Positions 41,888 through 45,208 of a stretch of DNA of 64,000 nt are shown in pieces. The DNA comes from an uncultured Opitutia bacterium (GTDB lineage Bacteria > Verrucomicrobiota > Verrucomicrobiia > Opitutales > Opitutaceae): positions 1 through 64,000 of the forward strand of contig CAITWF010000072.1 of the NCBI GenBank assembly GCA_903896015.1. Direction: 5' to 3'. Each line of letters starts with the position of its first letter. Position 1 is the first letter of the stretch. The notes under the pieces are model-generated. The model was not told the origin of the DNA. It saw nothing but the letters and a program-made list of their open reading frames with translations, and did no database searches. A program made the translations under genes and the position numbers.

Positions 41888-42736
41888 ATGAAAATGCTCG
41901 CCCTCATGTTTTTCACGGCTGCGGCACTGTGCGCCTCGCCGGAGCCGTTCAAGACCAACGCCCCGATCGTGCGGATTTGGCCCGGAGTCGCGCCCGGTTC
42001 CGAGGGGAAGGAGAACATCCCGGAGCGCTGGGTTGAGGGTGGCACGCCGGATATTTTTCACCGTGTAACTGACATCCACAATCCCTCGCTGACGATCTAT
42101 CTGCCGCCGAAGGGCAAGGCCAACGGCGCGGCGGTGGTCATCGCGCCGGGCGGCGCTCATCGCTATCTCGTGGTCGATCTCGAGGGCGAATTCGTCGCAC
42201 AAAAACTCAACGCGATGGGCATCGCGGCCTTTGTGCTGCGCAGCCGGCTCGCGCGGGCGGAGGGATCGACTTACAAGGCCGAGGTCGAGTCGCTCGCCGA
42301 TGTGCTGCAGTCGATCCGCATCGTGCGCGAGCGCGCAAAAGAGTGGGGCGTCGATCCGGCGCGGGTGGGCGTGATGGGTTTTTCGGCGGGTGGTCATCTC
42401 GCGGCACTGGCGGAAAATAATTTCGACGCGGCCACGCGCCCCGCGTTTGCGGTGCTCGGTTATCCCGGTTACGTCGGTGCGAGCACGCCGGTGGGGAAAA
42501 ACGTGCCGCCGACTTTCATCTTCGTAAACGACGATGATCCGCTCGCAACCGGCGCGGGCGAATACTACCTCTCGCTGCGAAAGGCGAAAGTCTCGGTCGA
42601 GTTTCACGTGTTTCGCCGCGGCGGGCATGGTGTCGGCGCCACGGGCCGCAACACGCCGGGGTTCGACGCGCTAAGCGTGGCCAAATGGCCGGAGCTTTTC
42701 GGTGCGTGGCTCGGCGATCTCGGGTTGTTGCGCTGA
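41888..42736 (+). CDS. Secreted alpha/beta hydrolase, acetyl-esterase type
   Basis: This 282-residue protein (ATG 41888, signal MKMLALMFFTAAALCASP) has the BD-FAE-like esterase fold. Motifs are IAPGGAHRYL (oxyanion loop), VGVMGFSAGGHLA (nucleophile Ser) and RRGGHGVG (histidine). Close relatives in this clade are acetyl xylan esterases or carbohydrate esterases. Near-duplicates in function lie at 51651 and 63637. Substrate inferred, not shown. Confidence 0.84.
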   Translation: MKMLALMFFTAAALCASPEPFKTNAPIVRIWPGVAPGSEGKENIPERWVEGGTPDIFHRVTDIHNPSLTIYLPPKGKANGAAVVIAPGGAHRYLVVDLEGEFVAQKLNAMGIAAFVLRSRLARAEGSTYKAEVESLADVLQSIRIVRERAKEWGVDPARVGVMGFSAGGHLAALAENNFDAATRPAFAVLGYPGYVGASTPVGKNVPPTFIFVNDDDPLATGAGEYYLSLRKAKVSVEFHVFRRGGHGVGATGRNTPGFDALSVAKWPELFGAWLGDLGLLR

Positions 42737-43069
42737 AAAACGATCACGGCGCGGTGTTGCCGACGCGCGGGCGATCAGTTCGACGCTTCGCGGCCAGCAG
42801 AGGCGCTCGCGGCCCTGAAAAAATCCCGCGCGTGGGAAATGCGCGTGTCGAATTCGAAAGCAAAACCGGACGGCGCGCGACGGGTGATCGCCGCCGGAAT
42901 TTCTTTTTCGCTGAAGGCGAGGCGTTAACAGAAGCGTGAAAACGTTGGCACGGGCGCTGCAAAAGGAGTGCGCATGTTCGCGATGATCAGGAAATTTTCC
43001 GGACGCGCGGACAAAAGGAAAAATCCATACCAACCCAACCTCAATGCTCCGCTGCAAGGAGCCTTCCCA
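42737..43069. other. 333-base gene-free stretch with sigma-54-type promoter
   Basis: No coding sequence is supported; short frames run through it with poor start sites. It contains the sigma-54-like element at 42946-42961 and an A-rich leader (AAAAGG after the element, AAGGAAAAATCC near 43015) before the TonB-C-like gene. The upstream half (42737-42900) shows nothing I can name. Confidence 0.6.
42946..42961 (+). promoter_or_regulatory. Sigma-54 (RpoN)-type promoter
   Basis: The sequence TGGCACGGGCGCTGCA matches the -24/-12 consensus TGGCACG-N4-TTGCW at 15 of 16 informative positions, differing only in one T (C at the first T of TTGC). GG and GC are separated by exactly 10 bases, the invariant spacing. 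Transcription would start near 42973, about 100 bases before the start at 43070. No enhancer-binding activator is visible in the window. Confidence 0.65.
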
Positions 43070-43426
43070 ATGATTAAAAAAATCCTCCTCCTCGCCGCCC
43101 TCACGGGTGTGGCTCTCACTGGCACTGCGTTCGCCTATTCACCGAAAGATGCGGTCAAACCCGATGAGCCTCGCGTCATCACCGCCTCCGTCGTTCAGCC
43201 CACCGGATTGCCGCGCACGTTCGCCGGCGAAACGGTCAACGTCGAATTCTCCCTCGATGCAAAAGGCCAGCCGCGCGACATCCAAGTGCTGTGGGTCAGC
43301 GACGCGGTGCTGAAGAAGCAACTGGTGGCCGCGTTTCGCCAGTGGCGCTTCGAGGCCGGCACGACTGCGGCGGACGTGTCGCCGCGCCGTTACATCCTGC
43401 CGATCCAGTTGAATCCGGAGGCCTGA
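43070..43426 (+). CDS. Small secreted TonB-C-like protein
   Basis: This 118-residue protein (ATG 43070; an upstream in-frame ATG adds a non-signal stretch) has a signal peptide (MIKKILLLAALTGVALTGTA, ending AFAYS). Most of the rest is a TonB C-terminal-like domain: VEFSLDAKGQPRDIQVLWVS and VAAFRQWRFEAGTTA. It lacks the membrane anchor and proline-rich stretch of full TonB, so it is a stand-alone periplasmic domain. It sits behind the sigma-54-type promoter and before a large hairpin that probably ends the transcript. Function unknown. Confidence 0.78.
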   Translation: MIKKILLLAALTGVALTGTAFAYSPKDAVKPDEPRVITASVVQPTGLPRTFAGETVNVEFSLDAKGQPRDIQVLWVSDAVLKKQLVAAFRQWRFEAGTTAADVSPRRYILPIQLNPEA

Positions 43427-43440
43427 GCCCGCGTGATTTT

Positions 43441-43454
43441 TGACCGGCCGGTCA
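43441..43454. repeat. 14-bp perfect palindrome
   Basis: TGACCGGCCGGTCA at 43441-43454 is fully self-complementary, 15 bases after the TonB-C-like stop. It may be a repressor or operator site, or part of the terminator region that follows. Confidence 0.4.
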
Positions 43455-43460
43455 TGCCGC

Positions 43461-43515
43461 GCCCGGTCGCGCAGTGCCGCTGATGTTGTGGTCAGCGGTG
43501 CCGGCGCGACCGGGC
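43461..43515 (+). terminator. Large hairpin downstream of the TonB-C-like gene
   Basis: A 12-bp outer stem (GCCCGGTCGCGC at 43461-43472 with its complement at 43504-43515) contains an inner 7-bp stem (CCGCTGA with TCAGCGG). The tail is ATTTCGTTTT, which makes it a plausible terminator though less T-rich than the one at 10648. It also precedes a membrane-protein gene by about 60 bases. Confidence 0.55.
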
Positions 43516-43575
43516 ATTTCGTTTTGCGCGGTCGCGGCATTGACGCAGCGCTGAAGCTGCTTTCGCTGGGGTGCC

Positions 43576-45208
<1,633 letters not shown>

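Follow-up and report, generated by a model that had tools for sequence, protein, structure and literature searches.

What switches on a gene whose product resembles the C-terminal domain of TonB and stands alone? In the window, by which we mean the whole 64,000-nt stretch of DNA from an uncultured Opitutia bacterium that was analysed here, such a gene follows a gene-free stretch of 333 nt (42737-43069, from the stop of a hydrolase ORF at 42736 to the ATG at 43070), and within that stretch lies a sequence, TGGCACGGGCGCTGCA (42946-42961, + strand), with the look of a sigma-54 promoter. Sigma-54 promoters work with NtrC-family enhancer-binding proteins, as in the NtrC, ZraR and PrsR circuits. The locus asks whether TGGCACGGGCGCTGCA is a promoter at all, which activator would serve it, and what the product would do.

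Layout of the locus

The features of the locus are collected in Table 1. A sequence-only reading had described -24/-12 spacing in a gene-free stretch, a small TonB-C-like gene behind it, and a palindrome and a large hairpin after the gene, and each of these elements is found: the GG and GC of TGGCACGGGCGCTGCA are 10 nt apart, in a TGGCAC-N5-TTGCW context, with a single mismatch (C for T) relative to TGGCACGNNNNTTGCW; 42737-43069 is free of genes; the gene is an ORF of 118 codons whose product scores above the Pfam TonB_C cut-off; and the palindrome (43441-43454) is followed by a hairpin with perfect 12-bp arms (43461-43515). The distance from the end of TGGCACGGGCGCTGCA to the ATG is 108 nt, and transcription would start near 42972. 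A strong Shine-Dalgarno sequence, AAGGAG (43056-43061), lies mostly within the 3' arm of the leader hairpin. Downstream of the gene, 43427-43540 folds with -67.9 kcal/mol (z -3.96; 0 of 200 shuffles equally stable); the hairpin at 43461-43515, which a terminator consensus scan did not pick up, is the probable end of the transcript. Because a palindrome and a large, stable hairpin follow the stop codon, the 43070-43426 unit is probably monocistronic.

Table 1. Features of the mini-TonB locus, in window coordinates.
Feature	Position	Strand	Basis or remark
Upstream activator dyad TCCCGCGCGTGGGA (TCCC-N6-GGGA), predicted	42824..42837	+	begins 122 nt before T of -24 element
Second dyad TGTC-GAATTC-GAAA, weaker	42846..42859	+	read in sequence, 22 nt past first dyad
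Sigma-54 -24/-12 promoter TGGCACGGGCGCTGCA, predicted	42946..42961	+	held-out matrix score 24.8 bits
Leader hairpin GCTCC-(GCTGCAA)-GGAGC	43046..43062	+	5-bp stem; fold
Stand-alone TonB C-terminal-domain protein, 118 aa	43070..43426	+	Pfam TonB_C, structure model
Palindrome TGACCGGCCGGTCA, 14 nt	43441..43454	+	read in sequence
Large hairpin 3' of gene, then ATTTCGTTTTG	43461..43515	+	perfect 12-bp arms 43461-43472/43504-43515

Conservation of the putative sigma-54 promoter

Taken alone, TGGCACGGGCGCTGCA is at chance level for a GC-rich window of 64 kb. The window holds three matches with at most one mismatch to the sigma-54 pattern versus 1.71 expected and, by matrix, two sites that score at least as high as TGGCACGGGCGCTGCA versus 1.6 in shuffles; genome-wide, sites with one mismatch number 37 versus 54 for the reversed pattern, i.e. 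there is no enrichment. Within its own intergenic stretch, a site as good as TGGCACGGGCGCTGCA arose in 3 of 1000 shuffles on the given strand and in 5 of 500 on both strands, figures that are post hoc. We rejected site counts, in the window or in the genome, as sole evidence, since they show no enrichment and by themselves would give a verdict of chance; the significance of TGGCACGGGCGCTGCA derives from conservation in relatives rather than from these counts. As to the machinery, the genome encodes one RpoN, and the sigma-54 activator domain is matched 13 times in it, strongly in 8 cases; a consensus scan of 42700-44250 found no sigma-70-like promoter.

For the comparison we used 112 different genes of the family, each taken with at most 600 nt of upstream sequence and picked by protein similarity with the promoter ignored; 123 loci had given these 112 distinct leaders once 11 duplicates were dropped. 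The loci L116-L225 are 110 among the matches listed, 30 taken automatically and 80 chosen by the author, mostly full-length, with the weaker matches of the listing and those outside it left out of this set; one doubtful family member (L022) is counted within the 112, and not every upstream extends to 600 nt. With a literature matrix, 26 of the 112 upstreams reach the score of TGGCACGGGCGCTGCA within 300 nt, versus a mean of 0.4 in shuffles, and within at most 600 nt a score of at least 12 bits is found in 60 of 112 on the coding strand versus 0 of 112 on the opposite strand. A matrix trained on 53 family sites, with the window site held out, finds a score of at least 10 bits in 92 of the 112 upstreams in the forward direction and in 3 of 112 in reverse. 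For the window site this matrix gives 24.8 bits, 14th among the 112 family upstreams and the best site in the window (runner-up, 14.0). Upstreams of other genes reach 10 bits in 3 of 89 cases, counted with redundancy kept as these controls come partly from overlapping loci; two of the three are one place seen in two overlapping loci, and the remaining case is the regulator operon treated in the next section. The 92 family sites sit at -93 to -137, -182 to -240 or -256 to -401 from the ATG.

Twenty of the 112 family upstreams have no site of at least 10 bits, including those of L199, L202 and L203, the relatives with the leaders most similar to that of the window. The second family copy in the window's own genome (contig C111, L119) has a best site of only 10.4 bits, and the same-genus copy L118 has no sigma-54 site in the 412 nt upstream of it. 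The genomes searched yielded no close orthologue of the window protein (the best same-genus match is 35% identical) and no syntenic orthologue for direct promoter footprinting; in G081, the only genome where the next gene has a clear relative, no family gene lies beside that relative in the 3.4 kb available. It follows that the conservation of the promoter spans paralogues and subfamilies. As a separate observation, the site-free L199, L202, L203, L214 and L221 have another stretch in common, GGCACAACACGAGG (by eye).

The chance-level counts and the 20 of 112 members that have no site would fit an accidental -24/-12 match in GC-rich intergenic DNA, with a housekeeping or ECF promoter in use instead, a reading that we consider very improbable in view of the held-out score and rank of the window site, the 92 to 3 strand asymmetry, the low rate in controls, the lack of a sigma-70-like site in the scanned region and the dyad at fixed spacing to which we now turn. 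Comparison of sequences thus supports conservation of the predicted promoter.

An upstream dyad shared with a two-component operon

The sequence-only reading had suggested searching upstream for the site of an enhancer-binding protein, and such a search yields TCCC-N6-GGGA, which the gene has in common with a two-component activator operon. The dyad has a single exact copy in the window versus 0.88 expected by chance, which alone is not significant. Among the 13 family members with a sigma-54 site at a short distance (-93 to -137), a group defined with the sites already in view, the dyad is present in 12, the window included, at -112 to -127 from the -24 element; at any other gap from 0 to 15 nt it occurs in at most 1 of 13. 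Its starts fall into two classes, -112/-113 (7 members) and -122 to -127 (5 members, with the window at -122), with none between, and the classes are about one helical turn apart, as would be expected if the face of the helix matters. A scan across all 112 upstreams is positive in 15, and L204, L210 and L212 are positive without a sigma-54 site. In the protein tree the rows with the dyad are spread over more than one clade; five changes are needed, of which the starred branches force at least two. Several relatives have, by eye, stretches resembling a second dyad 22 nt past the first. The comparison supports this dyad as a candidate enhancer site.

Which activator would bind there? Among the 13 activator-domain loci, each inspected over 1.5 kb on either side, only one (L037, on contig 92) carries the dyad, 113 nt before a sigma-54 site of 18.2 bits. 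That site is followed in order by a 77-aa ORF, the regulator and a kinase: the regulator (G000:C92) has 455 aa with a receiver, a Sigma54_activat and a Fis-type HTH_8 domain, and its neighbour is a histidine kinase of 445 aa with PAS and HATPase_c domains and a HAMP match below cut-off. The regulator scores far below all cut-offs of the NCBIfam equivalog models AtoC, NtrC, PEP-CTERM regulator and ZraR. The 77-aa ORF that comes first in the operon (L256:7832-8062) is hydrophobic and has no Pfam or NCBIfam match.

Among the best 80 listed, the nearest relatives of the regulator (at most 92% identical) carry the labels Verrucomicrobia, Opitutae or Opitutaceae, for which reason the bacterium was taken as a member of Opitutaceae. 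Of these 80 we used 75, leaving out 5 that had less than 500 nt upstream. We split the 75 loci into 37 near counterparts (at least 79% identity) and 38 distant ones (at most 74%). The exact dyad occurs at -111 to -125 in 27 of the 37 near counterparts versus 1 of the 38 distant ones, and again in two classes in the near set, 11 at -111 to -114 and 16 at -121 to -125. A sigma-54 site of at least 10 bits is present in 28 of 37 near counterparts (2 in reverse) versus 3 of 38 distant ones (0 in reverse). The sharing of the dyad between the target and the regulator operon is therefore supported by sequence comparison, and because the dyad is common to both, we infer that the regulator binds it.

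Some room is left for a sigma-54 promoter served by another activator, with the dyad a motif common to several of them: strong matches to the activator domain number 8 in the genome, and the upstreams of part of the core subfamily conserve a different element, TGCAAG..GTTTC..GGAAA. We think this unlikely, as only 1 of the 13 activator-domain loci has the dyad, and there at an equal distance from the sigma-54 site, and as near counterparts of the regulator keep it (27 of 37) and distant ones do not (1 of 38). The different element, GCAAG and mostly in the form just given, stands about 83 nt before the -24 element in 20 of 45 core upstreams inspected out of 66, for example upstream of L116, L125, L128, L129, L142, L148 and others; it may be the site of another activator, and it is absent at all 13 activator-domain loci. 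We also observed a sigma-54 site of 22.8 bits, without a dyad, right after another activator gene (L039 / L055, G000:C28:52812), where it precedes an ORF of 124 aa.

The earlier claim of RpoN control is thus supported by comparison, in that RpoN and activators are encoded, the family upstreams show the strand asymmetry given above and the candidate enhancer is shared. RpoN control of the 43070-43426 gene by the dyad-linked two-component regulator appears, on these comparative grounds, to be the best reading.

A putative secreted TonB C-terminal domain

The window protein matches Pfam TonB_C with 25.1 bits against a cut-off of 24.6 (E 2.5e-5) and TIGR01352 with 25.2, below the cut-off of 27.1. 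The TonB C-terminal domain begins with a YP..A..G segment; since the match to the Pfam profile begins only at its position 17, this segment is missing or altered in the window protein. The N-terminus resembles a signal peptide, with AFA before Y23 (judged by eye). A structure model has pLDDT values of 90-95 for residues 41-90, 78-85 beyond and about 50 for the first 30 residues, and it matches TonB C-terminal domain structures over 76-85 residues (VIA Z 8.0 to 1xx3 and 7.9 to 6i97); a Foldseek search of the model returns 6i97 at E 3e-4, and TolA domains follow at VIA Z 6.7 and below. The receptor-bound TonB domains 6i97 and 2gsk are among the best structure matches. These Z values near 8 are modest, but a single family leads the matches, in agreement with Pfam, and the model supports a TonB C-terminal domain fold.

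The protein thus shares with the TonB energy transducer the Pfam domain and the predicted fold, and differs from it in its 118-aa length, in an N-terminus that looks like a cleavable signal and in the proline-rich periplasm-spanning segment, of which the sequence has none. Lacking this spacer, the window protein is unlikely to act as TonB does. The product may instead be a soluble, periplasmic, free TonB C-terminal domain that tunes TonB-dependent transport; such a domain could occupy receptors or TonB itself, and free TonB domains reportedly block uptake in E. coli, as Howard et al. 2001 are said to have found.

At E <= 1e-10 a profile of the family finds matches in 219 of the 252 genomes from the same taxonomic family, a figure that also includes other TonB_C proteins; by the author's count, 113 of the 252 have a match below 1e-20 among the matches listed. 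In the protein tree the window copy sits on a long branch and its placement is not settled. This branch and the weak Pfam score, together with an internally deleted (L236) and a strongly diverged (L243) family copy elsewhere, might be taken to mean that the window protein is a functionless, decaying duplicate. We regard this as improbable, because the window copy keeps P44, G66, W92, F94 and P111, which are invariant across the 76 aligned members, in an intact frame, and because it has a strong Shine-Dalgarno sequence and a complete promoter architecture.

A more serious possibility, though still the less probable one, is that the partner of the domain lies outside the TonB system, for instance in an envelope structure or a TolA-like contact: TolA C-terminal domains also match the model, and TonB_C occurs at 13 places in the genome, doubled in some ORFs, and yet the best matches (Z 8.0 versus 6.7 for TolA) are TonB domains, receptor-bound 6i97 and 2gsk included. 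The 13 TonB_C matches in the window's own genome include two each in the ORFs G000:C60:33686-34255 and G000:C9:90979-91566.

Leader hairpin and a candidate leader RNA

The leader hairpin of the window has a minimum free energy of -8.3 kcal/mol (z -2.1), and 7 of 200 shuffles are equally stable. Of the 112 family leaders, 77 have a terminal hairpin scoring at least 16, a value also reached by 10 of 86 other genes and by 2.5% of 560 shuffles, and the family hairpins differ in stem sequence and have variable loops. The window leader scores 13.1, and a score of at least 12 is reached by 40 of 86 other genes; with its weak 5-bp stem and the shuffle result, we did not accept the window hairpin as proof of control.

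In the core subfamily, a conserved RNA lies between promoter and ATG, of which about 190 nt were modelled. Over 47 sequences, 27 of the 35 drawn pairs vary on both sides, and the covariation score is 0.388, compared with 0.190 after shuffling and no more than 0.122 in slid versions, the helices having been chosen on the same alignment that was scored. In one helix just 73.5% of cells are paired, and variation in the terminal hairpin is slight (2 of 6 pairs). When 372 genomes of the order were searched with a covariance model under strict filters, 22 matches came out at E <= 2e-4, all directly 5' of a family gene and 11 of them already in the model; the genes include the internally deleted L236 and the strongly diverged L243. 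Eight weaker matches (E 0.001-0.01) have no family gene seen downstream. On the window, the leader model R1 has no match up to E 1, and the window has only the terminal hairpin. In 26 loci searched against Rfam (14 and 12, including L002 with the window gene), no leader match reaches the gathering score; only two tRNAs of L010 do so, and these lie outside the leader, while the remaining hits are weak and stay below that score. The structured leader RNA of the core subfamily is accordingly a candidate for a new RNA family, one supported by covariation and without an Rfam counterpart.

Copies of this leader were seen at L116-L167 and others, about 190 nt before the ATG of core mini-TonB-C genes, and in the window's own genome (G000:C111:41783-41972; L227, L257:3784-3973). 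At L236 (G003:C9:5019-5211) and L106 it stands before a 74-aa family gene seemingly without its middle part; the RNA before the shortened gene may act in its own right, or the loss may be recent.

A proposed circuit and its relation to known systems

The joint explanation that we favor, at a probability of roughly three in four, combines a sigma-54 promoter at 42946-42961, a C92 regulator bound to the dyad, a single-gene transcript and a secreted TonB C-terminal domain. Under this scheme the phosphorylated NtrC-type regulator would occupy TCCC-N6-GGGA about 120 nt upstream and contact RpoN polymerase by DNA looping, turning the promoter on. The transcript, of one gene and about 0.5 kb, would end at the 43461-43515 hairpin, and the hairpin over the Shine-Dalgarno sequence may add control of translation. 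As the regulator operon has the same promoter unit, the regulator probably autoregulates. The secreted free domain would, as its most likely job, bind the TonB boxes of outer-membrane receptors, or TonB, so that TonB-dependent transport would be tuned under the condition that the kinase senses.

Several traits of this circuit are those of the NtrC, ZraR and PrsR circuits: the -24/-12 elements with 10-nt spacing, an upstream dyad at a helically phased distance, a receiver-AAA-Fis activator beside its kinase, and a promoter unit that also precedes the activator operon. It differs from them in its target, here a stand-alone TonB C-terminal domain, and we could match no described regulator to the dyad.

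In the parts of PMC12316311 available, a survey of sigma-54 regulons across phyla places COG0810 TonB of Flavobacteriia and ABC components of Opitutia under predicted sigma-54 control; TonB is named there for Flavobacteriia only, and those parts describe no mini-TonB family, enhancer dyad or Opitutia regulator. An envelope target fits the theme announced in the title of Francke et al. 2011 (PMC3162934), sigma-54 as controller of the bacterial exterior; in the main text of that paper, as far as it was available, TonB, Verrucomicrobi and Opitutus do not occur, and the accessible text of PMC2864571 contains none of the terms looked for. Among the papers listed, none deals with mini-TonB proteins of Opitutaceae under sigma-54 control. 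Both sigma-54 circuits and TonB domains are already known, and their combination was not found in the literature searched, which holds little on sigma-54 circuits in Verrucomicrobiota. What is proposed here is such a circuit with its target, promoter, enhancer site and probable regulator, and it raises the question of why a cell would export a TonB C-terminal domain without the spacer, apparently only on demand.

A broader and rather doubtful extension, which we offer tentatively, is that across Opitutaceae free periplasmic TonB domains made from sigma-54 promoters serve as an inducible brake or tuner of TonB-dependent transport, the window-type subset through one autoregulated two-component system acting at TCCC-N6-GGGA and the core subfamily with translation also gated by the leader RNA, which closes with a hairpin over the ribosome-binding site.

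Neighbouring sequence in the window

Two observations concern the DNA beyond the gene. At 43576-44049 a membrane-like protein of 157 aa is encoded that has matches in 2 of 100 family genomes (its own and G081; 68% identity). Further on, another genus (G024) has a stretch with 96% identity to the 50 bp at 44099-44148, which lie before an aldo/keto-reductase-like ORF; the identity is 82-86% in two more (G006, G003), and one copy was found in the window's own genome.
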